From positions 1-58,914 of the IMG/VR virus record IMGVR_UViG_3300037247_000395: 58,914 nucleotides of DNA; one strand, written 5' to 3'. The translations under genes were made by a program, and so were the position numbers. The DNA is from a virus. Shown here piece after piece: positions 9,038-58,914 of the stretch. The notes beneath the pieces were generated by a model. It did no database searches, had not been told where the DNA came from, and worked only from the letters and a program-made list of their open reading frames with translations. Numbering within the stretch: position 1 is the stretch's first letter; every line of letters begins with the position of its first letter.

Positions 9038-9075
9038 GCGCCAGTTCCAGCGGGCCGTAGCGCCTTCAGCAGGCC

Positions 9076-9103
9076 AGCGCCCCTCAGGAGTGGGCGCTTT
9101 TTT
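9076..9103 (+). terminator. Rho-independent terminator
   Basis: AGCGCCC pairs with GGGCGCT around a 9-nt loop and is followed by a run of six T (9098-9103). It lies only about 20 nt before the protease start, so it could act as an attenuator of the head operon as well as end the upstream transcript. Confidence 0.85.
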
Positions 9104-9124
9104 CGTGCCTGCTGGGAGAGGCGT

Positions 9125-44334: not shown

Positions 44335-46277
44335 TCCTACAGGGCCACGTCCTGGACAAGCTGGCCGAAATGGAGGCCGAGTCGGTGTCGTGCTGCGCGA
44401 CCTCACCGCCCTACTGGTCGTTGAGGAAGTATGAGGCGGGCGACGTGGTGTGGGGAGGGAGAGCGGGCTGCGAGCATGAGTGGGGCACCGTTGCCAAGGG
44501 TGGCGCGGCTGTCGAGGGATACGCAGGCAAGAAGAAATGGCAGCACACCGTCAACGGGCGCGGCGAGGATCATCCCGAGGCGCGGCACCGGCTAGAAAAC
44601 CCCGACGACTGGACGCGCATCACCCGCGAGACGTCCACCTGTGCCCGTTGCGGCGCGTGGCGTGGCCAGTACGGCCTTGAGCCCACGCCCGAACTGTACG
44701 TCGAGCATACGCTGGACGTGCTGCGGGCCATACGCCGCGTGCTGCGCCCGGATGGCGTGGTGTGGTGGAATATCGGGGACGGGTATGCAGGGGGCAACGG
44801 CACAGGTGGCGGCCCAGGCGACAAACAGTTCACCAACGTCGGAAGTCGGGCTCCAGCGACAGGTCGCGTTGTCGGCCTCAAGCCCAAAGACCTCGTGCTC
44901 ATGCCGTCCCGCGTGGCGCTGGCGGCACAGGCCGACGGCTGGTGGGTGCGCTCGGTGATCGTCTGGTCGAAGCCCAATGCCATGCCGGAGAGCACAAAGG
45001 ACCGGCCCACGACAGCGCACGAGTACGTGCTCCAGTTAGTCAAGGGGCAATGGAGTACGCGAGTCATTCAAGCTGCGAACTTCCCTGACGAGCGCGTTCA
45101 TTTCGGCAAGGACTTCGGGCTTTCGGGTGCGGACTCGTGGTGCGGTCAGTTCTGTATTCGCCTTGCGACCGCGCTCTTTGATTTTGCGCAGCGCCAAGAG
45201 GAGTTCAGCCTGCCGCCGTTTTATGCGGAGGAGTGGCAAGAGTTTTCGGACAACGCCGACGGCGGCGCGGTTGCGTCTGTCCCAGCGGTAAAGCGGGCGG
45301 CGGCGCTCGCCTCTCGGCTGCTCACGGATGATGTTTCCACCAAAGAGTTTCTGTGCCAGATGCACAGCCTGTGGATCGCATTGGGTGACGCTGATGATTT
45401 CCTGAAACGCTGGCGAGCGTCCCTTGCGTTCACGCCATCGGTCTACAGCGATGGAGATACATCCGTCGCTGTCAACGACTCCGGCCAGATACGAAAGTTC
45501 GATCTGCTTCATAACCTAATAGTACATGAACGGCCCACTACTTGCAACTACTGGTACGACCAGGAGGCGGTGAGGGAGGCGCACGGTTCAACGGCATGGG
45601 CTCATCAGCTAGAAGTTTATGAGCGCCGACACGGAGCGGAAAAGCATACGGGCATGAAGCCGCCAGAGGAGGGCATGAAACGCTTCGGCACAACAACGGC
45701 TGAGCGCTACAACAACCCCGCTGGCCGCAACATGCGCTCCGTCTGGGAGTTCCCGACAGCGCAGACGCCGGAGGCACACTTCGCCACCTTCCCAGAGGAG
45801 CTGCCCCGACGCTGCATAGAGGCGTCGTGCCCCCGCGAGATATGCGCCAAGTGCGGAATGGCCAGGGTGAGGCTGGTGGAGAAGACAGACGAGCCCGATA
45901 CACGAGCGAAGGGTAGCCGCTTCGACTCGGGTAAGACAGGCGTGAACGGTGAGGGCCGCACACAGGGCGGTGAACGCTTCCTAGATAGCACTACCGGCTG
46001 GACCTCCTGCAGCTGCACCGAGCCCGACTACCAGCCCGGCATCGTACTGGATCCCTTCGCCGGCATCGGAACAACCGGCATCGTGGCCAAGCGCCTCGGC
46101 CGCCGCTTCGTCGGCATTGAGCTATCGGAGAAATACGCGGAGATGGCGCGGGCCAAGCTGGCCATGTGGTGGCGCCGGACGGAGATGGTTGCTAGCGAGA
46201 CGCAGGACGGGCAATCCGTGCTGCCGCTGGAGACTACGCCGCAGGAAGTCGCTGCCGCCACGCGAGAGGAGGAGTGA
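44331..46277 (+). CDS. N4/N6-type DNA methyltransferase carrying an antisense endonuclease gene
   Basis: The 648-residue product has the catalytic TSPPYW motif at residues 24-29, a GDGYAGGN segment near 155, and the SAM-binding block [10 protein letters not shown] near 572, so motif IV comes before motif I (beta class order). A CARCG knuckle lies near 104. Residues about 236-400 do not look like methyltransferase: their DNA carries a LAGLIDADG gene on the other strand (45036-45512), and the frame simply stays open through it. Without that insert the length would be about 482, normal for the family. Whether the long form is active is unknown. Confidence 0.88.
45036..45512 (-). CDS. LAGLIDADG homing endonuclease
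   Basis: This 158-residue minus-strand product has one LAGLIDADG helix ([14 protein letters not shown], about residues 8-21) with the catalytic Asp, then strands, a LFGGNI segment, YRWDRRN, and a helical region ([20 protein letters not shown]) typical of single-motif enzymes that act as dimers. It lies wholly inside the methyltransferase gene and probably marks a mobile insertion at a conserved methyltransferase sequence. It is one of only two minus-strand genes I accept. Confidence 0.85.
45519..45547 (-). promoter_or_regulatory. Promoter of the antisense endonuclease gene
   Basis: On the minus strand, TTGCAA (45542-45547), a 17-nt spacer and TACTAT (45519-45524) stand just before the endonuclease start at 45512. 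Only six bases separate the -10 from the ATG, so the transcript should be leaderless. Confidence 0.5.
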
Positions 46278-47290
46278 TGCCGATCAGCTACGCGCCCACG
46301 TCCTGGAATCCCGTGGTAGGCTGCACGCCCGTGAGCGAAGGGTGCAAGAACTGCTGGGCCATGAAGCTGCACAATCAGCGGCACGAGGCGAACGTCAAAC
46401 AGGCCAAGTTTTACTCTGGCCTAGCTGAGCCAGCAGGAAAGCGGCGTCTTCGCAGCTACGAGGGCTGGAGGGAATGGGTTACTCGCGTCGGGGCGCCGCC
46501 TGGTGGGTGGGCCGCACGAGCGCGGCAACTTGACGTTCGCCTGCCCATGCCGCCGCAGTACGACCAACCCTTCGAGGAGATCCAGCTCTTCCCCGATCGC
46601 CTCTCCGAGCCCCTACGCTGGCGCAAGCCGCGCACCGTGGCCGTCTGCTTCATGGGCGACCTGTGGCACCCCGAAGTACCGGACGCGTTCATTGACGAGG
46701 TGTTCGCCACCATGGCCCAGGCTGAACGGCATAAGTTCCTCGTGCTGACGAAGAGGGCGGAGCGCATGTATTCCTACCTGAGCAGTCAGACCCGCCGCGT
46801 GGATGTCGCGCTGACGATACAGATCAGAGCTCGCACAGGTGAGAACTCGTTAGTTCCCTGGCCTCTCCCCAACGTGTGGCTGGGCGTGACGGCGGAGAAC
46901 CAGCGCATGGCCGACGAGAGGATACCGCTGCTGCTGAAGACACCGGCCGCGCACCATTGGGTGAGCCTGGAGCCGATGCTGGGGCCGGTGGACCTAGCTC
47001 ACATTCCCCTGTCCGGCGAGACTGGACTTGATACGTTGCGGGGGCTTGGATACCACCATGAGCCGGGGGTGGGCACGAATCGCTGGCCCCACCTCGACTG
47101 GGTAGTGGTGGGCGGTGAGTCCGGGCCCGGGCATAGGCCGATGGACTTACAGTGGGCGGCGGATATCTACGCCCAGTGTCGGGCCGCCAACGTGCCGTGT
47201 TACTTTAAGCAACGCGCAGCATCCCGTCCGGGCCAGCCTTCGGGCGTGGCCGCGCTGGATACCGCCAAGGAGCTGCCATGGACACGATAG
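46277..47290 (+). CDS. Phage Gp37/Gp68 family protein (DUF5131)
   Basis: The 337-residue product has the family's opening WNPVVGC followed by C-x2-C (GCKNCWAM), then CFMGDLWHPEVPD, FLVLTKRAERM, NVWLGVTAENQ, WVSLEPMLGP, WVVVGGESGPGHRP and CYFKQ. These are the conserved blocks of phage Gp37/Gp68. The three Cys near the N-terminus resemble an iron-sulfur or zinc site; the biochemical function is not established. It directly follows the DNA methyltransferase, sharing TGATG. Confidence 0.9.
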   Translation: MPISYAPTSWNPVVGCTPVSEGCKNCWAMKLHNQRHEANVKQAKFYSGLAEPAGKRRLRSYEGWREWVTRVGAPPGGWAARARQLDVRLPMPPQYDQPFEEIQLFPDRLSEPLRWRKPRTVAVCFMGDLWHPEVPDAFIDEVFATMAQAERHKFLVLTKRAERMYSYLSSQTRRVDVALTIQIRARTGENSLVPWPLPNVWLGVTAENQRMADERIPLLLKTPAAHHWVSLEPMLGPVDLAHIPLSGETGLDTLRGLGYHHEPGVGTNRWPHLDWVVVGGESGPGHRPMDLQWAADIYAQCRAANVPCYFKQRAASRPGQPSGVAALDTAKELPWTR

Positions 47291-47511
47291 AGAAGGCGCA
47301 CGCTGAGGTGCGCGTCATGGTGGGGGCCGCGCTGGACCGGAGAGCGTTCACCGCCGAGGAGATCATGGAGTCCGTCCGCGACGCCATGCGGGTCGTCCAC
47401 ATCGAGGCTTGCTGGGACTGTGCTCCTGGACCGGAAGGCTGTCCAGATCGTGCCCGGATCGACGCCCTGGCCCAGGATGGCCGAGAGCAGGCGCAAGAGG
47501 AGGTTCCGTGA
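47278..47511 (+). CDS. Hypothetical helical protein
   Basis: The 77-residue product overlaps the previous gene by 13 nt. It has a helical core and a CWDC pair near residue 45. Function is unknown. Confidence 0.58.
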   Translation: MDTIEKAHAEVRVMVGAALDRRAFTAEEIMESVRDAMRVVHIEACWDCAPGPEGCPDRARIDALAQDGREQAQEEVP

Positions 47512-47672
47512 CCCCGATAGATGGACACTGCGGAAAAGCCTGGCCCCACAAGCCGCACGAGTGGCTGCCCGATTACCCACACGCCCTCTGGGAAAGCTGT
47601 CCTGGCAGTCCTGAGCCTGAGAAGCCCGAGCCCCAGGATGCCCGAGAGGCGCCGCAAGAGGAGGGGACATGA
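47508..47672 (+). CDS. Hypothetical small protein
   Basis: The 54-residue product starts at GTG overlapping the previous stop. It has CGKAWPHKPHEW and a single later Cys, with a Pro/Glu-rich tail. A Cys/His zinc site is possible. Confidence 0.5.
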   Translation: MTPIDGHCGKAWPHKPHEWLPDYPHALWESCPGSPEPEKPEPQDAREAPQEEGT

Positions 47673-48079
47673 CACCGCAAATGTCGCTGGCGTCCTACGC
47701 GAACACTGGCGTCCCGCCGGGGCGCTCTAAGGAACAGATCGAGGAGCTGCTGATCAAAGTCGGTGCGGTCGGGTTTCGCTGGTCGAGCCGCACGACGCTA
47801 CCAGGCGAGGAAGTCCTGGAGGCTGGGCTAGAGTGGCAGGGCCGCGAGGTCGCCTTCAGGCTGAAGGTCACCTATGAGGACGAGCGCGAACGCAAGCAGC
47901 GCCTTCGTGCTCTGTACTGGTATCTCAAGGCTAAGGTGGAAGCGATCATCTTCGGCTTAGTGGACTTGGAGCGTGAGTTCCTGCCGTACATGCTGACGGC
48001 ATCCGGCGAGACAGTCTTTGACCACCTTGGGGGCCAGAACATGCGGCTGCTGGCCGCGCCGGAGGTAGAAGAGGCATGA
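47669..48079 (+). CDS. Conserved phage protein of unknown function
   Basis: The 136-residue product matches a widely seen phage pattern: an N-terminal 'SKEQIEELLIKVGAVGFRW' helix-strand, then 'EWQGREVAFRLKV', a long helix (RALYWYLKAKVEAI), and 'EREFLPYMLTASGETVFD'. Such proteins are common in early regions of high-GC siphophages and have no known function. Confidence 0.75.
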   Translation: MTPQMSLASYANTGVPPGRSKEQIEELLIKVGAVGFRWSSRTTLPGEEVLEAGLEWQGREVAFRLKVTYEDERERKQRLRALYWYLKAKVEAIIFGLVDLEREFLPYMLTASGETVFDHLGGQNMRLLAAPEVEEA

Positions 48080-48273
48080 GCCGCCGTGATGGTGAACCGT
48101 GGGTTGAAACCGTCCGGATCGCGTTCCATGTATGCGATTCCTGTAGTCGCGCCATTCTCAGAGGTGCGAAGGCTAGAATGCGAGTCGAGGTAGTCGGCAA
48201 GCATGAGGGGCGACCGCTGGGCGTACTCCACATCGAACACCCGGCTTGCCCGCAGGAGGGAGATAGATGCTAG
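48076..48273 (+). CDS. Small CxxC protein
   Basis: The 65-residue product has CDSC near residue 20 and a C-terminal C...C pair (ACPQEGDRC), consistent with a split zinc site. It overlaps the previous stop by 4 nt. Confidence 0.6.
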   Translation: MSRRDGEPWVETVRIAFHVCDSCSRAILRGAKARMRVEVVGKHEGRPLGVLHIEHPACPQEGDRC

Positions 48274-48419
48274 GCAAGAGACGAACGTGCTCACACTGTA
48301 AGAAGCGCCGCAAGATCATCACGTTCTGGGAAGATACGCGGGTAAAGCTCTGCCGTGAATGTGCCCTGAGTGAGAGCGTGGCTTTCTTCTATAGCATTCG
48401 GGGAGGAGCGCAGCGATGA
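48267..48419 (+). CDS. Zinc-ribbon minigene product
   Basis: The 50-residue product has CSHC (residues 8-11) and CREC (about 29-32), a clean zinc-ribbon spacing, in a basic context. It overlaps its upstream neighbour by 7 nt. A nucleic-acid binding role is plausible. Confidence 0.65.
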   Translation: MLGKRRTCSHCKKRRKIITFWEDTRVKLCRECALSESVAFFYSIRGGAQR

Positions 48420-48466
48420 GCCTCACCATCCGCCTGCGCTGGCCGCTCAGGGAGCTGAGTCTATGA
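48416..48466 (+). CDS. 16-residue minigene (tentative)
   Basis: ATG to TGA encodes MSLTIRLRWPLRELSL. It overlaps both neighbours by 4 nt. It may be only a coupling peptide. Confidence 0.3.
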   Translation: MSLTIRLRWPLRELSL

Positions 48467-48669
48467 AGCTGGAGCGCTTGGGAGGCTACCCGCTTTGGGA
48501 GTGGGGCTGTAATGATTGTACTTCCCTCAGCTCTGGAGGGACTTTGCCCATCGTAGAAGAGGGGGGCGAAGCCCGCGCTGTCGTCGCGGCGGCGAGGCGC
48601 CACACGCGAACAACGGGACACGCCACATGGGTACACAACATCCTGATGTGGGACATCTGGGCACCATGA
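48463..48669 (+). CDS. CxxC...HxxxTGH zinc-finger protein
   Basis: The 68-residue product has CNDC near residue 16 and RRHTRTTGH near 48, an arrangement like short Cys2-His2 fingers seen in phage and actinobacterial proteins. A Trp-rich tail follows. It overlaps both neighbours by 4 nt. Confidence 0.62.
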   Translation: MKLERLGGYPLWEWGCNDCTSLSSGGTLPIVEEGGEARAVVAAARRHTRTTGHATWVHNILMWDIWAP

Positions 48670-48968
48670 CGCGCCGGCGCGAAGACGCCGACTTCCAGGC
48701 CAAGATACTCAAGCTGGCCAAGGCGACGGGATGGCTGTGTTATCACACCTACGATTCTCGGCGGTCCAAACCAGGCTTCCCAGACTTGGTGCTAGTTCGC
48801 GGCGCATCCATGCTGTTCCTGGAAGTGAAGTCCGAGGATGGCAAGGCGAAGCCTGAGCAGGAAGCGTGGATCGCTCGGCTGAAGCAAGTCAAGTTCGTGT
48901 CCGCCGCAATTTGCCGGCCCCAGAACTGGGACGAAATCGCTGAGATGCTGAAGGGAGCCGCCCGATGA
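48666..48968 (+). CDS. VRR-NUC domain nuclease
   Basis: The 100-residue product is a stand-alone VRR-NUC (PD-(D/E)xK-like) domain: GFPDLVLVRG near residue 35, LFLEVKSEDG near 49, and KPEQEAWI near 61. The Asp, Glu and Lys of these motifs form the metal site. Phage members are thought to resolve or trim branched DNA. It likely works with the annealing protein encoded upstream. Confidence 0.87.
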   Translation: MTRRREDADFQAKILKLAKATGWLCYHTYDSRRSKPGFPDLVLVRGASMLFLEVKSEDGKAKPEQEAWIARLKQVKFVSAAICRPQNWDEIAEMLKGAAR

Positions 48969-49147
48969 AACCGGACATTCGAGAACTAGCGCGAGCCAAC
49001 AAGGTGATGGTTGACGCCGACCGTGGCGATTGCGAGCGCTTTCGAGTTCGTGGTTTCCTCGGCACCTTCTACCAGTCCATGTCGAGGGAGGAAGTCCGCG
49101 AGGTTATAGCGGCGATAGAGTGCGACTGCCGGGGGTGCTGCCGATGA
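48965..49147 (+). CDS. Small Cys-rich protein
   Basis: The 60-residue product ends in CDCRGCCR, a possible metal-binding cluster, after a helical N-terminal part. It overlaps the nuclease stop by 4 nt. Confidence 0.58.
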   Translation: MKPDIRELARANKVMVDADRGDCERFRVRGFLGTFYQSMSREEVREVIAAIECDCRGCCR

Positions 49148-49329
49148 CCAACCGTATCAACGAGGATCGAGCCCAGGCCGTGCGCGAGCTGCTAGAGAAG
49201 CGCTTATGGGTGGGCCGAGACGATAGGCGCTGGGATAGCTACAGCGCCGAGAGAATGATCCGAGAGGCCCAGGAGGAGATGGCAGACGCGATGCTCTACC
49301 TCGAAGTCCTGAAGGACAAGTTGCGATGA
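49144..49329 (+). CDS. Hypothetical helical protein
   Basis: The 61-residue product is charged and helical, with the segment EEMADAMLYLEVLKDKL. This faintly recalls MazG-type 'EE-x-ADA' helices, but the protein is too short for that family. Confidence 0.55.
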   Translation: MTNRINEDRAQAVRELLEKRLWVGRDDRRWDSYSAERMIREAQEEMADAMLYLEVLKDKLR

Positions 49330-49625
49330 CGGACAAGCCTGACCAAACCGCCCTAGAGGCCGTGAGGGCGCTGGGGGAGCTGGCAAGCCCGAGGCCGTGG
49401 CCAGCCATACGGGAACGCTCTAGGCGCGGGACAGCAGACAGGGCCTACGCCGCCCTGGCCGTGAACAGCATCGACGCGGCGGTGGAGGCGTTGGAGTGGA
49501 TCGAAAGCAACTGCCGGTGGGGCCATGAGTCCATTAATGAGGCCTGGGACGATCTTCATACGATTGTTGCGATAGCCCGCGAAGTCCTTGCCGCCATCAA
49601 GGACGCCGCGCAGGAGGCGACGTGA
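49326..49625 (+). CDS. Hypothetical protein
   Basis: The 99-residue product is mostly helical, with an ASPRPWPAIRER segment (a short phage-wide 'TPRPW' motif) near residue 22. No function is assigned. Confidence 0.6.
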   Translation: MTDKPDQTALEAVRALGELASPRPWPAIRERSRRGTADRAYAALAVNSIDAAVEALEWIESNCRWGHESINEAWDDLHTIVAIAREVLAAIKDAAQEAT

Positions 49626-49822
49626 TGGACGCGAAGATGGTTCATCTCTCCACTGCTCAGGATGTGCTACGGGCCGCCAACAGGCGCATCGCCGAGCTGG
49701 AGGGGGTACTGAAGTACGCACTAGAGCACCTAGGCCCGCCTAGGGGCCATGTTGGGTGCTCTTGTACTGCGTGTATCGAGTGGAATGAGTTCAAGCACCG
49801 CGCCGCCCTGAGAGGAGAGTGA
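49625..49822 (+). CDS. Small protein with CxC/CxxC
   Basis: The 65-residue product has a helical start and CSCTAC near residue 45. GTG 49622 is an alternative start. Zinc binding is possible. Confidence 0.58.
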   Translation: MDAKMVHLSTAQDVLRAANRRIAELEGVLKYALEHLGPPRGHVGCSCTACIEWNEFKHRAALRGE

Positions 49823-49825
49823 ACG

Positions 49826-50086
49826 ATGGCTGCCCACCCTATCGAGGAAGCGTACGCGGCGCTATGCCAAGAGGGCCAGGATATTGCCCTGGGTGGAGTG
49901 TGGCCTCCGCCAACACCCGACAGCTTTGAGCAGAAGGCCCGCGCCCTGGCCTTGGCGGTGCTGGAGGAGGTGGAGGGGATGGCGGCTGGATTTGCCAGCG
50001 CCGAGGTCAACGAGGTGTTTGTGGAGGACTCAATCGTGCCGCTCCGCGCCGAGATCGAGAGGCTTGGACGTGAACGGGTTTCCTAA
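49826..50086 (+). CDS. Hypothetical helical protein
   Basis: The 86-residue product has two helices and a central 'GVWPPPTPDSFEQKARALA' segment. AGAGGAGAGTGAACG precedes the ATG. Similar segments occur at 53182, suggesting related small helical proteins. Confidence 0.58.
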   Translation: MAAHPIEEAYAALCQEGQDIALGGVWPPPTPDSFEQKARALALAVLEEVEGMAAGFASAEVNEVFVEDSIVPLRAEIERLGRERVS

Positions 50087-50327
50087 GGCTGGCTGGGGGA
50101 GCTGGGCGCAGTGGAGGCGGCGACACCTAGAAGCATACCGGCAGGGCCGAAGTCGGTTCGTTGCGGATTGCCGCCCTGACCACCGCCATGTACTCTTCTG
50201 CGAACTCTGCGACGTAGCGACGGACGAATGGGCTGATAGGCATAACCCATATCGCAGCAAAGAGGCAGAAAATCGAAGCAGGTATGAGACGATCAGCCAA
50301 ATCACACATGCAACGGCCAGCCGATGA
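50070..50327 (+). CDS. Hypothetical protein with CELC pair
   Basis: The 85-residue product starts at GTG overlapping the previous gene by 17 nt. It has an aromatic N-terminal helix and a CRPDHRHVLFCELC stretch near residue 37 that could bind zinc. Confidence 0.52.
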   Translation: MNGFPKAGWGSWAQWRRRHLEAYRQGRSRFVADCRPDHRHVLFCELCDVATDEWADRHNPYRSKEAENRSRYETISQITHATASR

Positions 50328-50518
50328 CCTGCCCGCCCCACCGCTGGATACTCAAAGCCCCCAACGGCCCGATTGTGCCGGGTATATGCCGGCGCTGCGG
50401 GGAACGCAGGAAGTGGCCGGCCTCACCCCTGTCAGGTGTTCTCGGCAAAGGAAAAGGGAAGGGCGCCGGCTGGATCAGGGCCGCCAAGGCGCGGCTAGCA
50501 GCAAAGGAGAAGGTGTGA
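50324..50518 (+). CDS. Zinc-binding phage protein
   Basis: The 64-residue product starts MTCPPHRW, followed by APNGP and then CRRCGERRKWP. This is a recurrent phage pattern in which 'H-W...PNG...C-x2-CG' forms a small zinc site. The C-terminus is Gly/Lys-rich. It overlaps the previous stop by 4 nt. Confidence 0.68.
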   Translation: MTCPPHRWILKAPNGPIVPGICRRCGERRKWPASPLSGVLGKGKGKGAGWIRAAKARLAAKEKV

Positions 50519-50706
50519 GAAGTCTGATCCGGTGGACAAGCGGTAGGACGCTGGTGCTTGGGCGGCAACATAGAATGCGCCGATGGTTGTTAGTTGACAC
50601 TTCGTTTGGGCCGGTCACGAAACTCTCGTTTATCTGGTACCGGCCGCTTGGTGTCACGCTGTCTGCCCTGATCGTGGGGAGGAGAATCAGCTATGTGCGC
50701 GACTAG
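50515..50706 (+). CDS. Hypothetical basic protein
   Basis: The 63-residue product starts at GTG overlapping the previous stop. It is basic, with a beta-like second half (LVDTSFGPVTKLSFIWYRPLG). Function is unknown. Confidence 0.52.
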   Translation: MRSLIRWTSGRTLVLGRQHRMRRWLLVDTSFGPVTKLSFIWYRPLGVTLSALIVGRRISYVRD

Positions 50707-51004
50707 CATGACCGCCACAGACCGAGCCCGCGCCCTGCTGCTGGCGGCGACGATACCGAAAGGATCAAGTGATCCGCAACAGTGGCGGGACTGGGCCAAG
50801 GCCAATCAGGAGCTAAACCGCCTCGGCTTCAACAAGCCCGCCACCCTGGCCGTGGCAGCTCAAGGCTTCGAGGCGCTGTACGTCGCGCATGACTTCTGCT
50901 GTGACTTCGAGGACGACCAGCCCTGCACCACGGAGAACTGCCAGGTGCAGAAGGCCCTCGCCGCCTGGGAGGCGCTTTTCAAGAAGGAGGAAACCAATGT
51001 GTGA
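50693..51004 (+). CDS. Hypothetical protein
   Basis: The 103-residue product is helical with four Cys (about 65-82: FCCDFEDDQPCTTENC), likely a metal or disulfide site. GGGGAGGAG precedes the ATG; a later ATG at 50708 is possible. Confidence 0.6.
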   Translation: MCATSMTATDRARALLLAATIPKGSSDPQQWRDWAKANQELNRLGFNKPATLAVAAQGFEALYVAHDFCCDFEDDQPCTTENCQVQKALAAWEALFKKEETNV

Positions 51005-51281
51005 GCAACAGCCCAAGTTTAAGGAAGGGGCGAAGGCCGAGCACCGGATCAGTGAAGATGTCTGGGAGCGAGTGGCCATTCTCTCGCTACCGCTCCGCCA
51101 TGCGGACCCACGCATTACGGTGGGCAACCTCTATCTCGTTGGCGACGGCAAGGTGCGGTTCCTCACGAATGAAAACAACCTCCGCCCCGTCGAGCGCTGG
51201 GTGAAATGCGACGGCAAGCACCGCTTTGCAGACCGGCCGGAGGGGGGGCAGCCGACCAACATGGAGCGGCTGGTGGAATGA
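50997..51281 (+). CDS. Hypothetical protein
   Basis: The 94-residue product is beta-rich in its centre (ISEDVWERVAILSLP, TVGNLYLVGDGKVRFL). AAGGAGGAAACC precedes the ATG. No family is recognised. Confidence 0.6.
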   Translation: MCEQQPKFKEGAKAEHRISEDVWERVAILSLPLRHADPRITVGNLYLVGDGKVRFLTNENNLRPVERWVKCDGKHRFADRPEGGQPTNMERLVE

Positions 51282-51624
51282 GCTGTACGATCTGTGGGCG
51301 TTTCGTGCCCTACGATTCTGATTCCGCAACGGACTTTGGCGACAGCTCCGATTATGAGCCGCCGGACCCGCGTTTCTACTACGCCACCTGTGCTGAAGCT
51401 GAGGAGCGGCGGGCGATTGAGACTGGCAGGTGTTGCCGTATCACTGGATACCGGCTGCCTGGGAGCGACGAGCGGCGAAGGCGCTGGGCTATGTGCGAGC
51501 GGGACCGAAGTCGGCAGCCTGGGGGCACTGGTACGCGCCGGACAAGCTGCCGGAGGGCTATGTTGTCCACGAAACACAACGGCCCAGCAACCGCAGGGTT
51601 GACAGGCCGAAGGCGGAACAGTAA
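51278..51624 (+). pseudogene. Frameshifted gene (zinc knuckle plus conserved tail)
   Basis: The frame from 51278 opens with CTICG and runs to about residue 50 (AEERRAIETGR), then becomes Arg/Ser-rich and stays open without sense. The -1 frame from about 51430 encodes a credible continuation: YHWIPAAWERRAAKALGYVR and WGHWYAPDKLP, ending at 51624. The two parts look like one protein interrupted by an extra base near 51420-51435. The cause may be a true mutation, an assembly error, or a GTG-started second gene at 51430. Confidence 0.55.
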
Positions 51625-51627
51625 GAT
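51599..51627 (+). promoter_or_regulatory. Strong sigma70-type promoter
   Basis: TTGACA (51599-51604), a 17-nt spacer and TAAGAT (51622-51627) form one of the best promoter matches in the window. It overlaps the end of the broken gene and directs transcription into a stretch with no credible long gene. Confidence 0.72.
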
Positions 51628-51633
51628 GTCCCT

Positions 51634-51975
51634 AAGATGCGTTACCCAGATTATAGCACACTGGCCGTTCTGGCGTACGCCTCTTCGAGAGGACAAGGCC
51701 ACCTCTATAAAAACTGACCCGTACCCGGAGGGAAGACCTGGGAGCGCGGGCGACGTAACCCCAGGAACGGGGAGCCGAAAGGCTATGCGCCGGCCACCAG
51801 CGTCATTGGGCCGCTGTGAACAAAGCGCGGTGCGGGAGGGGTTGGGCCACGGCCCGCACCCGCCGACAGAGGGAAGCTCCAGGTTCCATAGTCCCGACTG
51901 CTACCCTGGAGTTGGCCTTATCGGTGTCATGCCGGGATCTAAGATGGGGCAGGGCAACCTGCCGATGGCCCCCCG
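51634..51975 (+). ncRNA. Candidate structured non-coding RNA
   Basis: Downstream of the strong promoter, six stems pair perfectly. They are CCTGGG/CCCAGG (51737-51742 with 51760-51765); AGCC-GAAA-GGCT (51773-51784, GNRA loop); CAGCG/CGCTG (51798-51802 with 51812-51816); GTGCGGG/CCCGCAC (51830-51836 with 51853-51859); CTCCAGG/CCTGGAG (51877-51883 with 51905-51911); and GGCAGG-GCAA-CCTGCC (51948-51963, GNRA loop). No frame here looks like protein apart from a possible 26-codon start peptide. The RNA would end just before the AAAGGAGA of the next gene. The class is not recognised; exact ends are guesses. Confidence 0.62.
51637..51717 (+). CDS. Possible 26-residue leader peptide
   Basis: ATG 51637 lies 9 nt after the -10, close to the expected transcription start, and encodes a Tyr/Ala-rich peptide ending at TGA 51717. 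There is no ribosome site, so translation would have to be nearly leaderless. It may be chance. Confidence 0.25.
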   Translation: MRYPDYSTLAVLAYASSRGQGHLYKN

Positions 51976-51992
51976 CGCCCTGAAAGGAGACG

Positions 51993-52085
51993 ATGATGGA
52001 TAGGTACTATGTGGGAGTCTTACTCGGATTCTTGGTGACGTTCGTTGTGATGTACGCCTACGACTTGTTGTGGGGGCTAACGTAG
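51993..52085 (+). CDS. 30-residue membrane protein
   Basis: The product is one transmembrane helix (about residues 6-26) flanked by MMDRYY and a Trp-rich end. AAAGGAGACG precedes the start (51993 or 51996). It may be a phage-encoded membrane peptide acting on the host. Confidence 0.6.
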   Translation: MMDRYYVGVLLGFLVTFVVMYAYDLLWGLT

Positions 52086-52253
52086 ATGGCCCGGAAAGGT
52101 AAGTGGAAAATGGCTGCGACCCCCATCAGGGAGGCCCGGAGGTTCTGCCAGTGCGGCCACCACCTGATAAGCGGCGATGGAGCCTGCCTGTCATGTCCTA
52201 TTACAAGTGCAGGCCAGTCAGCGTGTACCCGGTTCGCCGAGGGCGCGGAGTAA
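52086..52253 (+). CDS. Zinc-ribbon minigene product
   Basis: The 55-residue product has a basic N-terminus, then CQCGHH and CLSC knuckles about 12 residues apart. It begins directly after the previous stop. After it, 86 bases without a gene include an ACGGGG...CCCCGT hairpin. Confidence 0.6.
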   Translation: MARKGKWKMAATPIREARRFCQCGHHLISGDGACLSCPITSAGQSACTRFAEGAE

Positions 52254-52339
52254 GTGGGGGTACGGGGGCTCGCTGTCCCCGTCTCACCACCCTGGTAAAT
52301 CCTGCGAGGCCCTGAAGTGAAGCGAAAGGAGCGCGTGAC

Positions 52340-52618
52340 ATGAAGTGGTTTGTAAGTAGCAAGAACATTGACGAGATAGTCGAGGCGGCTGATCGATGGG
52401 AAGCCTTCGATACTTTACGCAATCGTCCTGCTGACGATTTCGGCCTCATCGTCGAGGTTCAGCCCGTTCGGGAGACTCAGGAAGAGGCAGTAGCGATTCG
52501 CACGTCAGCCCTCTTTGGTAAGCGGTGGGGCAGACCGCAGATAGCGGAGCGCTTCATTGCTGCGGCGGTTGCCCAAGGATTAGGGGATACGACTGAAGAA
52601 GACTTGTGCCAAGGGTGA
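52340..52618 (+). CDS. Hypothetical protein
   Basis: The 92-residue product has a beta-alpha start (MKWFVSSKNIDEIVEAADRWEAFDTL) and a C-terminal helix. GCGAAAGGAGCG precedes the ATG. No family is recognised. Confidence 0.62.
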   Translation: MKWFVSSKNIDEIVEAADRWEAFDTLRNRPADDFGLIVEVQPVRETQEEAVAIRTSALFGKRWGRPQIAERFIAAAVAQGLGDTTEEDLCQG

Positions 52619-52663
52619 TCTCTGCCCAATCCGGATTGGTTCTTCAGGGAGAGGAGTGACGCG

Positions 52664-52945
52664 ATGGACAAAGTACACACGGTGCATGAGTTGAAGACAT
52701 GGCGTGCCCCGTTCAGGATGATCGTACGCGGCCACAAGCGTGCGGAACTGCGCTGGAATGATCGTGGCTTCAAGGCGTGGGACTACATGCTCCTGCAAGA
52801 GTGGGACGAGGGGAAAAACACCTACACCGAGAGCGCCGTCATGTGCCAAATCACCCATGTTGTGGGCGCGGCCACGGACTTTGGGGCTCTAGCCGATGGC
52901 TTCGTGATGCTCTCGTTCAATGTGCTGGAAACAAACACCAGCTGA
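52664..52945 (+). CDS. DUF3850/ASCH-like protein
   Basis: The 93-residue product has the family's opening HELKTWRAPFRMIVRGHKRAELRWNDR in separate blocks (HELKTWRAPF; GHKRAELRWNDR), then WDYMLLQEWDE, a beta hairpin and a final DGFVMLSF strand. DUF3850 is related to the ASCH/PUA-like fold and is thought to bind RNA or nucleotides. No phage function is proven. Confidence 0.82.
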   Translation: MDKVHTVHELKTWRAPFRMIVRGHKRAELRWNDRGFKAWDYMLLQEWDEGKNTYTESAVMCQITHVVGAATDFGALADGFVMLSFNVLETNTS

Positions 52946-52979
52946 GCCCCTAGCGGTTCCGGCAGTAAGGAGTGAAGCG

Positions 52980-53189
52980 ATGGCTAACGTAACCTGCGGC
53001 CTGTGTGGCGGTGACTTCAAGGAATGCAACACGGCTGGGGCCTTCCAGGCAGCAATGGAGAACGCGGCGAGGCCGGCAGGGATCACTATCCAGCACGGTG
53101 ATCTGCTCTGGCGTGTCGGCCTGGCCGCCTGGGAGGCCGCTGTGGAACACGCCATGGGCGGCCCGCCTAAGGAGGAACGCGATGACTGA
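52980..53189 (+). CDS. Small CxxC protein
   Basis: The 69-residue product has CGLCGGDFKEC at residues 6-16 and a helical rest with DLLWRVGLAAWEAAV. The start at 52980 follows AAGGAGTGAAGCG. Confidence 0.6.
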   Translation: MANVTCGLCGGDFKECNTAGAFQAAMENAARPAGITIQHGDLLWRVGLAAWEAAVEHAMGGPPKEERDD

Positions 53190-53415
53190 CGAATCTGCCA
53201 ACCCTGTCCAGGAAGCGTGGGAGCGGCTTGAGGCTGAATTGCTTGAGCTGATGGACGGGCAGGGGTCGTCTATTGACGCCGAGGATGCTGCCCGCGCCCT
53301 GGCTCTGGCCTCAGCGAAGGCGATGCTGCCACCACGAAGCCATCGTGGCGCTAAGACGGGGATCGAGCGCCGCTACTTGGCCCTCCGCGCCCAGATCGAG
53401 GGGCTGGGTCGGTGA
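53182..53415 (+). CDS. Hypothetical helical protein
   Basis: The 77-residue product is helical, with DAARALALASAKAML, and resembles the product of 49826. It overlaps the upstream gene by 8 nt. Confidence 0.55.
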   Translation: MTDESANPVQEAWERLEAELLELMDGQGSSIDAEDAARALALASAKAMLPPRSHRGAKTGIERRYLALRAQIEGLGR

Positions 53416-53570
53416 AGCCGCCTAAGTGCCGAGAGTTGCAGCACGATCCGCTCAAGGAGTGCGTCAAGCCTGCCGGCCACCCGCCGCCGCACGAGTTCGT
53501 TAGGATACGCCCATGGGCCGGCAACTCGGCATCGACTGAGACGCGCTACCACCTGGGAGAGCGTCGGTGA
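53412..53570 (+). CDS. Small Cys/His protein
   Basis: The 52-residue product starts at GTG and has two Cys (about 6 and 17) with HPPPHEF, a possible zinc site. It overlaps both neighbours by 4 nt. Confidence 0.52.
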   Translation: MKPPKCRELQHDPLKECVKPAGHPPPHEFVRIRPWAGNSASTETRYHLGERR

Positions 53571-53890
53571 TCACCTGCCGTGACTGCGGCAAGAAGCGCC
53601 TCGTCTGGGTGACGACAGACAACGGGGAGGACGTGCTCTATGAGCTGGGGGCGCCGCACTTCGTCCACTGCCCGGCCACGCGGAAGAACGGGGCGAAGGC
53701 CCCGCGACAGCCCCGAAAGTCCGGCGACAGCCCGGCGACGGAGGCGCACGAGCTGGCCGTGGCTGGGCTCATGGCCTTGCGGTACAAGGTGACGGAGGCG
53801 CGGGACATGCTCAAGGACATACCAGAAGGCGAACCGGCCGAGATGGTGAAGCGCGCCCTACAGAAGATGGGCGCCGATGCGCCTTCTTGA
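53567..53890 (+). CDS. Zinc knuckle plus RuvA-C-like domain protein
   Basis: The 107-residue product starts at GTG. It has CRDC at residues 4-7 and HFVHC near 32 as a likely zinc site, then a Lys/Pro linker, and a C-terminal three-helix segment (LMALRYKVTEARDML, AEMVKRALQKMG). That segment resembles the UBA-like domain III of RuvA. It may bind DNA-processing partners. It overlaps the C5 methyltransferase by 14 nt. Confidence 0.65.
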   Translation: MITCRDCGKKRLVWVTTDNGEDVLYELGAPHFVHCPATRKNGAKAPRQPRKSGDSPATEAHELAVAGLMALRYKVTEARDMLKDIPEGEPAEMVKRALQKMGADAPS

Positions 53891-54506
53891 TCTGTTCTGT
53901 GGCGCTGGTGGGGCAGGGATGGGCTACCACCGTGCGGGCTTCGAGGTGGTGGGCGTCGATCATGTTGCCCAGCCGCGGTATCCCTTCGAGTTCCACCAGG
54001 CCGACGCCATGACGTACTCGCTGGAAGGCTTCGACGTGATCCACGCGAGCCCGCCATGCCAGGCGTACTCGTCACTGAGGGCTCTAGCGCCTCGGAAGCT
54101 ATACCCGGACCTGCTTGCGCCCACCAGGGATCGCCTGGGCGCCACAGCGATGACGTGGGTTATCGAGAACGTGCCTGGAGCCCCGCTGCACCATTGGTTC
54201 TTTCTCTGCGGCGGGATGTTCGGCCTTCGGACCTACCGGCACCGCCGCTTCGAGAGTTCGGTGATGCTCATGCAACCCCACCACCCGCAGCATGTGGCCC
54301 TCACCAGCACCAAGAAGCGCAGGCGGGACTTCGACGCGGGGATGCACATCAGTATCACGGGTGACGTGGGCTCATGGCTAGGTCCAGCCTGCATGGGCAT
54401 CGACTGGATGACGGGCAACGAGCTATCCCAGGCCATCCCGCCAGCCTACACGGAACTGATCGGACGCGCCCTCATGGCCGCCCTACAGAAGATGGGAGAG
54501 GACTGA
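53877..54506 (+). CDS. DNA cytosine-5 methyltransferase (short)
   Basis: This enzyme would methylate cytosine C5 using SAM. The 209-residue product has motif I (LLDLFCGAGGAGMG, residues 3-16), the catalytic Cys in SPPCQ (residue 61), and motif VI ENV in WVIENVPGA. Motif VIII-like and C-terminal blocks follow, but the target recognition domain is very small, so it is near the minimum for the family. It probably shields phage DNA from restriction or alters its expression. Confidence 0.9.
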   Translation: MRLLDLFCGAGGAGMGYHRAGFEVVGVDHVAQPRYPFEFHQADAMTYSLEGFDVIHASPPCQAYSSLRALAPRKLYPDLLAPTRDRLGATAMTWVIENVPGAPLHHWFFLCGGMFGLRTYRHRRFESSVMLMQPHHPQHVALTSTKKRRRDFDAGMHISITGDVGSWLGPACMGIDWMTGNELSQAIPPAYTELIGRALMAALQKMGED

Positions 54507-55030
54507 TGCGAAAGCTAGAGACGACGAAAGAGGAGCGGGCAGAATCGCTACGGCTACTAGAGGCACTGCCCAACCTGGGCTATTGTGTGGAGCCGGACTT
54601 TACCGCCCGTGTCATCCGCGACGTGGACACGGCGGTGGCGCTGCTACAGGACGGGGTGCTCTCGCTGGACCCCAACGAAGAGACGGCGTGGGCCAAGGCG
54701 GTTCGTGAGCTATTGCAAGATCCGCCCAGACGGGCGGGCGCCGGCCCGCAAGCGGCCTCCGCCCAGGCCGACGCTGGCGTTACCGTCAGTGTTGCACCGG
54801 GTAAGGCCAAGGTGGATGGCGTAGAGGTAGAGGAAGCGCCACCGCCCGTCGCGGCGACATGCCGGGACTGCGGCTGGAAGTTCAAGGAGCGCGCTGATCC
54901 GCCGTATTCCTGGCTGGTCGTTAGCTGCGAACCCGAACACCATTTGCTGCGTCTCTTCCATGGTTCGTTGGGCTCAGGTGCCCCAGGCGTGCCGGTCGCC
55001 TCTGTCGCCATCGACAAGGTGGCATCATGA
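54506..55030 (+). CDS. Hypothetical protein with zinc knuckle
   Basis: The 174-residue product has a helical first half, an Ala/Pro-rich linker, then CRDCGW near residue 117 and CEPEHH near 141, giving a Cys/His site. Its start overlaps the methyltransferase stop. Confidence 0.62.
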   Translation: MRKLETTKEERAESLRLLEALPNLGYCVEPDFTARVIRDVDTAVALLQDGVLSLDPNEETAWAKAVRELLQDPPRRAGAGPQAASAQADAGVTVSVAPGKAKVDGVEVEEAPPPVAATCRDCGWKFKERADPPYSWLVVSCEPEHHLLRLFHGSLGSGAPGVPVASVAIDKVAS

Positions 55031-55185
55031 GCATCACAGGCTGGCTGTTCCGCCTCGCTCGCCTAAGCGCCGACGTGGGGGCCCTGAAGTCGGGGAAGCC
55101 CAAACGCATCACCCGAAGGGTGAAGAACAAACTCACAGGCCGCGTGCTCAGCCGGACAGGCTTCTGGGCAAGGCTCTGGAAATGA
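55027..55185 (+). CDS. Conserved small basic phage protein
   Basis: The 52-residue product has the pattern 'FRLARLSADVGALKSG' followed by 'RITRRVKNKLTGRVLSR' and 'GFWARLW'. Similar short basic proteins are conserved in many high-GC siphophages, without known function. It overlaps the previous stop by 4 nt. Confidence 0.68.
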   Translation: MSITGWLFRLARLSADVGALKSGKPKRITRRVKNKLTGRVLSRTGFWARLWK

Positions 55186-55194
55186 AGATCGCGC

Positions 55195-55383
55195 ATGGCT
55201 AGAAAGAACAAGATGCATCCCGCGACATGGCCCTGCCACGATTGCGAGGAGAACATACTTGAGCCGCCTCTGTTCTGTGTACCAGCAACATCAGCGGAGC
55301 TCAACGCACTGGCTCAGGGCCTACACATACCGTTGTCGCGTCTATGCTATCGCTGTTGGGCCAAACGAACGCATCCGGTGTAG
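55195..55383 (+). CDS. Zinc-ribbon minigene product
   Basis: The 62-residue product has CHDC (about residue 14) and CYRC (about 51) with another Cys between. It is basic at both ends. Function is unknown. Confidence 0.62.
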   Translation: MARKNKMHPATWPCHDCEENILEPPLFCVPATSAELNALAQGLHIPLSRLCYRCWAKRTHPV

Positions 55384-55397
55384 TGAAAGGAGATCTC

Positions 55398-55586
55398 ATG
55401 GCCAAGAAGAGCGAGCATAATCAGGTGACGATCAAGCTGGACCCCGAGGACTACAAGAGCCTCTGCAAGTTCGCCGAGGATGGCGACCGGAGCACGTCGG
55501 CTCAGGGCCGGCGCATGTTGAGGCGGGCCATCGAGGAACGGCGAGCGGCAGAGCCAGCTCTGCCGGAGGGCGACGCGGCGCCTTGA
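55398..55586 (+). CDS. Ribbon-helix-helix protein
   Basis: The 62-residue product has the strand NQVTIKLDPEDYKSL and a helix pair (FAEDGDRSTSAQGRRML, AIEER), a CopG/Arc layout. AAAGGAGAT precedes the ATG. It may regulate genes in this end of the genome. Confidence 0.68.
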   Translation: MAKKSEHNQVTIKLDPEDYKSLCKFAEDGDRSTSAQGRRMLRRAIEERRAAEPALPEGDAAP

Positions 55587-55620
55587 CAGAGAAGTCCGCC
55601 AAGAAGGGAGAAGGAGAGAG

Positions 55621-55794
55621 ATGCCGAAACCGAAGAAGCCGCTAATTCACCATCGTAACAGAGGGGTTCAATTCACAGCCTGTGGAATGGACACGCAAGG
55701 AGAAGCACGGGAAGCAAGGCGATCCCCTAGGCGCATTAAGGCGACGTGTCCGGCGTGTGTCGCCGTTTTGCAGGCCAGGGGGCTTCTGGGCTAG
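55621..55794 (+). CDS. Small basic zinc-binding protein
   Basis: The 57-residue product has a Lys/Arg-rich body, a lone Cys near residue 21, and CPAC near 43. AAGGGAGAAGGAG precedes the ATG. Its TAG overlaps the stop of the minus-strand gene inside a CTAG. Confidence 0.6.
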   Translation: MPKPKKPLIHHRNRGVQFTACGMDTQGEAREARRSPRRIKATCPACVAVLQARGLLG

Positions 55795-55946
55795 CGCTCG
55801 TGCCTCACGTCGTCCAGCAGTCGCGTCAGCGCCTCATCGACGGCGCGACAGGTACAGAAGGCTGGATGCACCCCACAGTGGCAGACCACCATCGCCTTGA
55901 GGACGATCACGGGCCGGCCGCATTTGCAGAACTGGTCTGGCTTCAT
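55791..55946 (-). CDS. Minus-strand zinc-ribbon protein
   Basis: The 51-residue product has CKCG, CHCG and CTC motifs, then a helical tail (DEALTRLLDDVRHE). On the minus strand GAAGGGAG lies 7 nt before the ATG. It is convergent with the 55621 gene. The plus-strand alternative here reads like random sequence. It is one of only two minus-strand genes. Confidence 0.65.
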   Translation of the reverse strand: MKPDQFCKCGRPVIVLKAMVVCHCGVHPAFCTCRAVDEALTRLLDDVRHER

Positions 55947-56008
55947 GCTCACGCTCCCTTCTATGTCTGTTATCGGCCAGTGGGGTAGCATTCTGAAGGG
56001 GAGTCGCC

Positions 56009-56037
56009 TTGACAGCTCTCATATCTAGGAGTAGCCT
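56009..56037 (+). promoter_or_regulatory. Sigma70-type promoter, leaderless gene
   Basis: TTGACA (56009-56014), a 17-nt spacer and TAGCCT (56032-56037) are followed after six bases by GTG 56044, so the mRNA likely starts at the start codon. It restarts + strand transcription after the minus-strand gene. Confidence 0.62.
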
Positions 56038-56043
56038 GTAGGC

Positions 56044-56223
56044 GTGATGAATCGGTTCACATACCGCCTCTGCCACCAGCACGACACCTATTACGTGGTG
56101 GAATGTCCGGCGTGCTTCCTCGCATACTTCAGGCAGCGGGAACGTCAGACGGGCGAGGCCGAAATCGTGCCGCTACAGCATGTCGCCTACCTGGCTAGTA
56201 CGAGCTACCCCGTGGTGCCGTGA
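56044..56223 (+). CDS. Small Cys/His protein, probably leaderless
   Basis: The product (59 residues from GTG 56044, or 58 from ATG 56047) has CHQH near residue 10 and CPAC near 21, a compact C-x2-H/C-x2-C zinc site. It is the first gene after the promoter. No ribosome site is present. Confidence 0.65.
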   Translation: MMNRFTYRLCHQHDTYYVVECPACFLAYFRQRERQTGEAEIVPLQHVAYLASTSYPVVP

Positions 56224-56456
56224 TGGTGAGGGTGAAGCGCCCCAGGCACACTCAATACGAACGCAACGGCCTATCACCCGAGGAGACTCTGGCGGCGGTT
56301 GTCGTCAAGGGTGGCCTACGAGCGTGGGGCTCGAGGTACGCCCTATCGCCGAATGGCCGGTGGTGGCTGGGCATCATGGGGCTAGAGCCACATGCAGTTC
56401 GAGATCAGGCCGTGCGGGAGCGGCAAGAGAAAGCCGCGTTGATGGAGGTTTCATGA
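56223..56456 (+). CDS. Hypothetical protein
   Basis: The 77-residue product has a basic start and an alpha/beta pattern (SPEETLAAVVVKGGLRAWG, RWWLGIMG). It shares TGATG with the previous gene. Function is unknown. Confidence 0.58.
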   Translation: MVRVKRPRHTQYERNGLSPEETLAAVVVKGGLRAWGSRYALSPNGRWWLGIMGLEPHAVRDQAVRERQEKAALMEVS

Positions 56457-56725
56457 GGGATGATGATGCGCTTTGCGAACAGCGTGCCCGTGAGGCGCCA
56501 GCTGCGTTGCGTGACTACTGGAAACTAGAGGGGTGGACGCCGTTCAGCCCTGAGCAGTTCTATGTTACTTGGGGCGGGCTCTGGCGATACGCCGCGTCGC
56601 TACTGATCTGCGAGTTCCTGGGCCACAAGTGGAGCGACTCGGGTTACTGCCTGAGCGGCGAACCTAGCGATTACCGCGACTGTGAGCGCTGCAACAGGAA
56701 TGAGGTGCTAAGGGAGGCTCAATGA
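56453..56725 (+). CDS. Zinc-binding phage protein
   Basis: The 90-residue product has a helical N-terminal half and a C-terminal 'CEFLGHKWSDSGYC...CERCNR' block in which Cys, His and CxxC resemble a common phage zinc motif (C-x3-GHKW...C-x2-C). It overlaps the previous stop by 4 nt. Confidence 0.66.
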   Translation: MRDDDALCEQRAREAPAALRDYWKLEGWTPFSPEQFYVTWGGLWRYAASLLICEFLGHKWSDSGYCLSGEPSDYRDCERCNRNEVLREAQ

Positions 56726-56750
56726 CGAACAGCAAGCAGGAGGAAAGCGT

Positions 56751-56981
56751 ATGAAAGAGTTACTAAAGCGTCTATTCGGACGTAGCGAGCGTTGCCCGAA
56801 GGCCAGGCTTGCTGCTGAAAGCATGTGGCGAGAACTCCAAGGGGAGAACGATACCGAGATCGCGGCTATCATCGTTGGTTCAGATGGCACATGGGGAACG
56901 CCCATAGATATGCCGCCGCCTGGTGCCGGTAGGGATGAGCTGATGGCGGAGCTCACCGCTATCAGGGTTGCGGGGCATTAG
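56751..56981 (+). CDS. Hypothetical protein
   Basis: The 76-residue product has a basic N-terminal helix (MKELLKRLFGRSER) and a short alpha/beta region. CAGGAGGAAAGCGT precedes the ATG. No family is recognised. Confidence 0.57.
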   Translation: MKELLKRLFGRSERCPKARLAAESMWRELQGENDTEIAAIIVGSDGTWGTPIDMPPPGAGRDELMAELTAIRVAGH

Positions 56982-56983
56982 CC

Positions 56984-57265
56984 GTGCCTGAGAAGCCCCT
57001 AAAGCACTATACCTATTTCGCCCGGAACGAGCAGGGCCAGGTCCAGCAGCTTCCGATCTCAGGCTGGGGGCCGACACCCCCAACACCCGAGATGGTCGAG
57101 CAGATGTACCAGGCGATGTGTCAGCAGGCGGCCGCGAAAGGGAACTTTAACGTGCCGCGCCCTACGCACGTCAAGGTGGACGTGCTGCACGAGCTTCCGC
57201 CGGCGAAGGACGCACCGAAGCACCCCCTGATCGTCGTCCCGCGTGGCCGGAACGGGGCGAAGTGA
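56984..57265 (+). CDS. Hypothetical protein
   Basis: The 93-residue product starts at GTG and is Pro/Gln-rich, with KHYTYFARNEQGQVQ at the start. No domain is recognised. Confidence 0.57.
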   Translation: MPEKPLKHYTYFARNEQGQVQQLPISGWGPTPPTPEMVEQMYQAMCQQAAAKGNFNVPRPTHVKVDVLHELPPAKDAPKHPLIVVPRGRNGAK

Positions 57266-57456
57266 TGGCTGACTCCGAAGACATGAGTCGCTTCGTGAGT
57301 GACCAAGAGATTGAACTGACGCCAGAGGCCGTAGAGAACCTGTTCGTGGATGGTCGTAGGGTCACGCTGGCCGGCACCTTCGACGACACGCCACCCACCC
57401 GGCAAGAGCGCATCCGCCGGTACTACACTGGCTGGGCCAAGGCCCGGAGGAACTAG
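57265..57456 (+). CDS. Hypothetical acidic protein
   Basis: The 63-residue product begins MADSEDMSRFVSDQEIELTPE and ends with a basic RIRRYYTGWAKARRN. GTG 57262 is an alternative start. It shares TGATG with the previous gene. Confidence 0.57.
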   Translation: MADSEDMSRFVSDQEIELTPEAVENLFVDGRRVTLAGTFDDTPPTRQERIRRYYTGWAKARRN

Positions 57457-57465
57457 GAGGAAGTG

Positions 57466-57681
57466 ATGCGGTGTGAGGTGCGAGATGGCGCTACCACCGT
57501 GGCCCAATGGCGCGACGGGGACATCAGGCCGGGGCTGACGGTAAAGCCCCTGGTGTGGCCTATCGTCATGGTGGGTGACTTCCCCTACCAAGTGAAGGCC
57601 GAGAAGCTCGTCTACTATGAGGACGGTGAGGCGATATTCGACATGGGCCGCGAGACGACTATCACGCTGGGGGGGCGATGA
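57466..57681 (+). CDS. Hypothetical beta-rich protein
   Basis: The 71-residue product has several short strands (VRDGATTVAQW, PIVMVGDFPYQVKAEKLVYY). AACTAGGAGGAAGTG precedes the ATG. It overlaps the HNH gene by 4 nt. Confidence 0.58.
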   Translation: MRCEVRDGATTVAQWRDGDIRPGLTVKPLVWPIVMVGDFPYQVKAEKLVYYEDGEAIFDMGRETTITLGGR

Positions 57682-58046
57682 CTCAGCCCGTCCGTCTTTG
57701 CCCGACGCCGCGCTGCCCGAACCTACAGCGATGCGCTGACCACCCGCGCATACCGTTCGCCAACGCGAGGCGGTCCACCACTCTCTACAGCACGGCACGC
57801 TGGAAGCACGAGTCCCGGGCGTTCCTGATAGCCAACCCATTCTGCGTGGAGCGGCAATGGGGCACATTCGTGTCGCCGGAATGTGGCGCCGTGGCCACCG
57901 TGGTCGACCACCGCATACCCCACCGAGGTAACGAGGCGGCGTTCTGGGATCGCGGCAACTGGGCTGCCCTTTGTAAGCCACACCATCAGGCGAAGACGGG
58001 GCGGGAGGTACGCTACCGCAAAGGAGGGCTGAAACGGGTGCGCTGA
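57678..58046 (+). CDS. HNH endonuclease, terminase-associated type
   Basis: The 122-residue product has the phage HNH layout: C pairs near the N-terminus (CPTPRCPN), YSTARWKHESRAFLIANPFC, then VVDHRIPHRGNEAAFWDRGNWAALCKPHHQAKTG, given here in parts (VVDHRIPHRGNE; NWAALCKPHH). The HNH catalytic His is in VVDHRIPH. Enzymes like this sit beside small terminase genes and are needed for DNA packaging in HK97-type phages. Here the terminase lies at the other end of the window, which suggests the ends adjoin. Confidence 0.9.
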   Translation: MTQPVRLCPTPRCPNLQRCADHPRIPFANARRSTTLYSTARWKHESRAFLIANPFCVERQWGTFVSPECGAVATVVDHRIPHRGNEAAFWDRGNWAALCKPHHQAKTGREVRYRKGGLKRVR

Positions 58047-58062
58047 AGGCGTTAACACACCA

Positions 58063-58878: not shown

Positions 58879-58914
58879 ATTCTCAGAATTTTGACGCCGC
58901 CGAAGCTTTGGAAT

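Follow-up and report, generated by a model that had tools for sequence, protein, structure and literature searches.

Only in a few places, the early leaders of phages among them, is a short RNA known to reprogram a polymerase or a host. The locus studied here raises the question of whether a protein-free stretch behind a near-consensus promoter encodes such an RNA, and on what the RNA would act. The window, i.e., the whole stretch of DNA analysed, comprises the 58,914 bases of a virus record, and its terminase is closest to those of phages of Gordonia, Mycobacterium and other actinobacteria. A preliminary description, made from the letters of the window, had proposed a heavily paired non-coding RNA of no known class: a host-targeting RNA, a decoy, or a long leader for a small membrane protein. 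The comparison with a second phage described below supports a putative functional non-coding element behind the promoter.

Promoter and predicted leader in two phages

To find relatives of the locus, 2.9 million viral contigs were searched for an exact 22-mer, and one other record, IMGVR_UViG_3300037247_000506, was obtained. Its locus is designated L003, and the whole record G001. The genes further out are collinear in both phages at roughly 62–85% nucleotide identity, and therefore the two places were taken as orthologous. The DNA between and around the two conserved stretches described below is unrelated in the window and L003. L003 was the sole match in four DNA-pattern scans of viral contigs. 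Relatives sought through the flanking genes at 50997 and 52340 were not found, and one phage without the element was obtained. The features of the window up to the ribosome-binding site are as follows.

51599–51627, plus strand: sigma-70-type promoter TTGACA-17-TAAGAT; counterpart TTGACC-18-TAAGGT in L003
51634–51639, plus strand: predicted transcription start AAGATG
51637–51717, plus strand: possible near-leaderless upstream ORF, MRYPDYSTLAVLAYASSRGQGHLYKN (speculative)
51640–51781, plus strand: variable 5' part of the leader, with a GAAA hairpin inside
51782–51817, plus strand: half-conserved shoulder
51818–51993, plus strand: hyperconserved non-coding core
51983–51989, plus strand: Shine-Dalgarno sequence AAAGGAG, identical in both phages

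The promoter lies exactly where it had been described, and is the sole exact instance of TTGACA-(15–19)-TAAGAT in the window, while 0.01 instances are expected by chance from shuffled sequences. Sites with 10 of 12 matches numbered two, at 51599 and 8959, when 1–45,000 and 45,000–58,914 were scanned. L003 keeps CAGGG(G)TTGAC-18-TAAGGT, and its own letters upstream of the leader read CAGGGGTTGACC-18-TAAGGT. AAGATG follows with identical letters and at an equal distance from the −10 box, and then GT(T/C)ACCC, in both phages. From the predicted start, an untranslated leader would extend over 51634–51995, roughly 360 nt in the window and about 320 nt in L003.

Just upstream of the promoter, each phage has a hairpin that resembles a terminator for the opposite strand, at 51579–51594 in the window and 9912–9937 in L003. 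The L003 hairpin overlaps the −35 box, takes the form of a long inverted repeat, and could also be an operator.

The 5' part of the leader appears free to vary. Region 51640–51781 is unconserved except for ACCC near its start, and is about 35–40 nt longer than that of L003; the stretch from the start to the core measures 184 nt in the window versus 146 nt in L003, and its sequence differs too. The GAAA hairpin and the other 5' stems are absent from the part conserved in the second phage. Both phages have an ATG 3 nt downstream of the predicted start, and at the place of the upstream ORF L003 has an unrelated ORF of 22 aa.

Conservation of the 3' part of the leader

The 3' part behaves differently. 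Window 51782–52000 aligned with L003 without a gap over 219 nt at 94.5% identity, and the conservation rises gradually at the left edge, from 29 of 36 positions in the shoulder to 172 of 176 (97.7%, gapless) in the core. The right edge lies just past the start codon, ATGGA, and the core runs unbroken into a Shine-Dalgarno sequence and start codon common to both phages. In nine orthologous genes of the same pair, identity was 51% at the four-fold degenerate sites (178/349) and 51% at third codon positions, and the synonymous divergence is, by this measure, saturated. The runner-up among ungapped 176-nt blocks across both genomes was 77.8% identical. Even with a generous per-site identity of 0.78, the binomial probability of 172/176 is 3e-14. 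These 176 bases, the best-conserved block of the highly diverged pair, are non-coding. The near-identity of 51782–52000, and of a second element at 52256–52306, between the diverged phages was not part of the preliminary description.

The 12 substitutions in the 219 nt are distributed across all codon phases, and in a six-frame test every frame had 8–10 non-synonymous versus 1–4 synonymous changed codons. Since all six frames show this excess, the conserved block is, judging from its substitutions, not protein-coding. In addition, no ORF with a family match was found in the approximately 360 bases behind the promoter, and the substitution test agrees with the earlier statement that this stretch is protein-free. 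An open frame at 51206–52003 was considered as a gene and rejected by the same test; its openness seems incidental, because the changes in all frames are mostly non-synonymous and spread over the phases.

Predicted folding of the leader

The folding energies were compared with those of dinucleotide-shuffled sequences. Region 51636–51975 gave −139.7 kcal/mol versus −138.0 kcal/mol for the shuffles (z −0.30, 34/100), and 51780–51999 gave z +0.13. The leader region is simply G+C-rich and pairs as its base composition gives. Therefore, the description of the RNA as heavily paired has no support beyond base composition; an energy no better than that of shuffled sequence was the outcome that the description itself had held to count against its proposal. 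The sub-hairpin at 51858–51930 is the only clearly unusual part (z −2.54, 4/200). The functional non-coding RNA that had been proposed thus gains support from its conservation in the second phage, not from its folding energy.

A consensus fold was computed from two sequences, the window and L003, and contains five helices with 52–54 pairs. Its predicted parts are as follows.

51829–51836, plus strand: P1 5' strand, GGUGCGGG; pairs with 51972–51979 (long-range) or 51853–51860 (local), both possible in L003
51840–51860: hairpin
51861–51926, plus strand: P3, a long hairpin with interruptions, which encloses a small one around CCCG (z −2.54 versus shuffles)
51931–51969: final arm, tipped by GGCAGG-GCAA-CCUGCC
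51948–51963, plus strand: the GGCAGG-GCAA-CCUGCC hairpin, invariant in both phages
51972–51979, plus strand: P1 3' strand, CCCGCGCC; CCUGCGCC in L003, which turns G-C into G-U

P1 is a long-range helix that would close the domain and end before the Shine-Dalgarno sequence. In full-length folds, its probability was 0.70–0.75 in the window versus 0.05 in L003, where this helix is not favoured. The individual hairpins pointed out earlier do exist, including AGCC-GAAA-GGCT, GGCAGG-GCAA-CCTGCC and 51829–51836/51853–51860; the GAAA hairpin and the 5' stems among them are not conserved in L003. Three of the four changes in the core are one-sided exchanges between G-C and G-U that keep the pairing, and one is an unpaired A/C change; no pair is broken. 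The changes are compatible with a single five-helix fold and do not prove it, because three of the four are C/T transitions, which facing G keep the pairing anyway, and only two sequences were compared; with no double-sided compensatory change among the four, the covariation amounts to close to no evidence. No terminator-like site was found at the end of the conserved domain.

Genes behind the leader and a second conserved element

Behind the leader, the following features were identified in the window.

51996–52085, plus strand: first gene, a membrane-like peptide of 29–30 aa, with a second ATG at 51993
52086–52253, plus strand: 55-aa ORF with cysteines, no family match
52256–52306, plus strand: second conserved non-coding element, 50/51 (98%) identical to 14320–14370 of G001
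52340–52618, plus strand: gene of 92 aa following the second element, without a family; a different gene in L003

From the aligned start codon, L003 encodes an unrelated 70-aa protein as its first gene. Of the three functions suggested at the outset, a long leader fits best, because the conserved block runs into the shared Shine-Dalgarno sequence and start codon while the genes behind are unrelated. A leader dedicated to the small membrane protein is not supported, since the first gene of L003 is another one. A free host-targeting RNA or a decoy draws no direct support from the results.

The second element folds as a GC-rich hairpin (z −2.67 for the window). In both phages, it is located directly after a stop codon and before the Shine-Dalgarno sequence of the next gene, and the genes behind it differ. 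It may be independent of the leader core. Mutual pairing of the two elements through the inverted repeats I3 and I4 was considered and rejected, as by inspection it is not kept in L003. Behind the second element, L003 encodes a protein with a helix-turn-helix and repeated zinc-ribbon-like parts (8527–9281, minus strand), which by eye resembles HNH/homing-type proteins and has no counterpart at that place in the window.

Searches for known RNA classes and further copies

A search against the 4227 families of Rfam 15, which include group I and II introns, GOLLD, ROOL, OLE, HEARO and riboswitches, gave no match at the gathering threshold or at permissive ones (E up to 5 with the window part, up to 1 with the L003 part). 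One miRNA match with E 3.8 lies outside the element and was rejected as chance. The statement that the RNA belongs to no known class, for which this search had been proposed as a check, was thus borne out. GOLLD, ROOL, OLE and group I introns resemble the window element as long, conserved and structured phage RNAs without a protein. However, the window core is far shorter, adjoins a start codon and has no Rfam match.

The search for further copies was extended to other collections. Phage and plasmid collections gave no match or chance scraps by blastn, and no real counterpart holding 19 specified bases was present in a collection of genomes from 84,980 species. A pattern scan of genome contigs returned 11 matches, which were all rejected as chance, most of them lying within one protein-coding motif. 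By blastn, nhmmer or a covariance model, 24 loci with a neighbouring VRR-NUC gene yielded no further copy; the complete records of 19 viral loci, the end of D29 and Gordonia phage GAL1 gave none either. The intergenic gaps of GAL1 have no comparable promoter, and region 45500–49127 of D29 was unmatched by the covariance model R1.

Possible functions of the leader

We give roughly even credence to the reading that the leader is a structured RNA with a cis-acting role in a probably early operon of exchangeable genes, with a put-like action as the first guess. We infer the transcription of the leader, its early timing, its fold, its action in cis and its target. In its 3' part, 51818–51993, the leader would form a compact RNA domain under sequence constraint, with a strong ribosome-binding site directly after it. 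Since the leader is shared by the phages and the first genes are not, this domain would act on any gene placed behind it, and the second hairpin element, 52256–52306, may mark the next gene boundary. As a first guess, the nascent RNA may act on the transcription machinery, by put-like anti-pausing or antitermination, or may shield the 5' end of the transcript, and the outcome would be efficient read-through of an operon of small exchangeable genes. An action on the polymerase would best explain both the indifference to the downstream genes and the near-frozen letters, because the RNA would then have a conserved host machine as its partner.

The put RNA of phage HK022 alone suppresses pausing and termination of the early genes (PMC9378689). 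Like put, the window element would be a cis element in a promoter-proximal leader that is indifferent to the genes following; the window leader does lie directly behind its promoter, independent of the downstream gene. The likeness proposed here is functional only. The put RNA, which has a two-hairpin fold, acts on the E. coli RNA polymerase; the window element is larger, and has no Rfam hit. No terminator or pausing site for the leader to overcome was identified. Also weighing against the reading in cis are the ordinary fold energy, the low probability of P1 in L003, and the chance that recombination made the two places alike.

The chief rival, which we consider rather unlikely, is a stable and abundant non-coding RNA acting in trans, for example as a host-toxic RNA or a decoy, which would be made from the early promoter and processed from the leader, with the gene behind being read at a low level. 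It has precedents in actinobacteriophages. In L5, D29 and StarStuff, a region of about 500 nt separates the early promoter Pleft from the first gene and gives rise to a non-coding transcript that exceeds all others in abundance; the region is toxic, and a part of it could not be removed (PMC5712189). Three abundant non-coding RNAs are made by Rhodococcus phage WC1 (PMC10986025), and phages of Gordonia, Mycobacterium and Rhodococcus are those to which the window terminase is closest. The window shares with these cluster A phages a siphovirus-type genome with a related terminase, and with the Pleft RNA a non-coding stretch of several hundred nt with a sigma-70-like promoter before it and small genes after it. 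P1 can also close off the domain as a unit that ends before the Shine-Dalgarno sequence. On the other hand, this end carries nothing resembling a terminator, and the conservation continues past the domain into the Shine-Dalgarno sequence and the start codon. Neither sequence nor covariance model matched the right end of D29, and blastn gave no significant phage match. Moreover, relatives of D29 and L5 are rather dissimilar in their region, while the phages compared here are much further apart and yet have 97.7% identity in the core.

Two further readings, a regulatory switch and a cassette border at the level of the DNA, have a lower probability. A riboswitch-like or attenuator leader, which we regard as quite unlikely, would use the exchange between the local hairpin 51829–51836/51853–51860 and P1 to switch translation or transcription of the next genes, and the upstream ORF at 51637 might be read by ribosomes. 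Such a switch is possible according to the models: both pairings are kept in both phages, and enforcing either of them costs at most 2.5–3.1 kcal/mol in either phage. The domain immediately precedes the ribosome-binding site, and the ATG close to the predicted start is present in both phages. However, G+C-rich RNA commonly has alternative pairings. The Shine-Dalgarno sequence is sequestered in neither of the two near-isoenergetic folds in either phage: its first bases, AAAG, are predicted to be mostly open (the first three positions 0.75–0.98 unpaired), and GGAG about half open, in both; this openness also fits the leader acting in cis. Furthermore, the two upstream peptides are unrelated, and the controlled genes differ between the phages, which is unusual for a ligand-specific switch.

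The least likely reading is that the element works as DNA, either as homology for the swapping of gene cassettes or as another DNA site, and that the likeness is partly due to recent recombination: both conserved elements flank unrelated genes as crossover points would, and the near-perfect match, which extends to helix positions, could stem from recent exchange or gene conversion, but both elements occupy orthologous positions within a collinear gene order, the tracts end at functional borders (start codon, stop codon and Shine-Dalgarno sequence), the left edge fades (29/36, then 172/176) instead of ending abruptly, and no direct-repeat array of the origin type is present.

To return to the leader acting in cis, it may tentatively be regarded as representing a new class of phage leader RNA, in which a near-frozen domain of about 150 nt would work with conserved host machinery (RNA polymerase or ribosome) in the expression of a series of swappable genes, and a further short element would mark where the next gene begins. 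If the core works on the polymerase or the ribosome, the class would be new; its functional kin, the phage early leaders and the abundant early non-coding RNAs, are already known. The position of the core before freely swapped genes points to an unrecognised interaction with a conserved host component, and offers a small, defined target for expression tests. The comparison of promoter-proximal non-coding stretches across diverged relatives can reveal RNAs that fold energy alone misses.

Other features of the window genome

A tRNA cluster is located right after the portal region, at 7232–7568, and consists of Ser-CGA, Leu-TAA and Leu-CAA by ARAGORN; a weak fourth tRNA match was given by Rfam at 7486–7568. 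Another tRNA-like sequence at 36367–36435 scored 51.8 bits by Rfam and was not called by ARAGORN. Its anticodon loop is CTTTAA, 6 nt between CCCGG and CCGGG, and it is possibly a degenerate tRNA. In the tail and lysis part, 31624–33261 encodes a methyltransferase fused to a family 2 glycosyltransferase, with TPR repeats.
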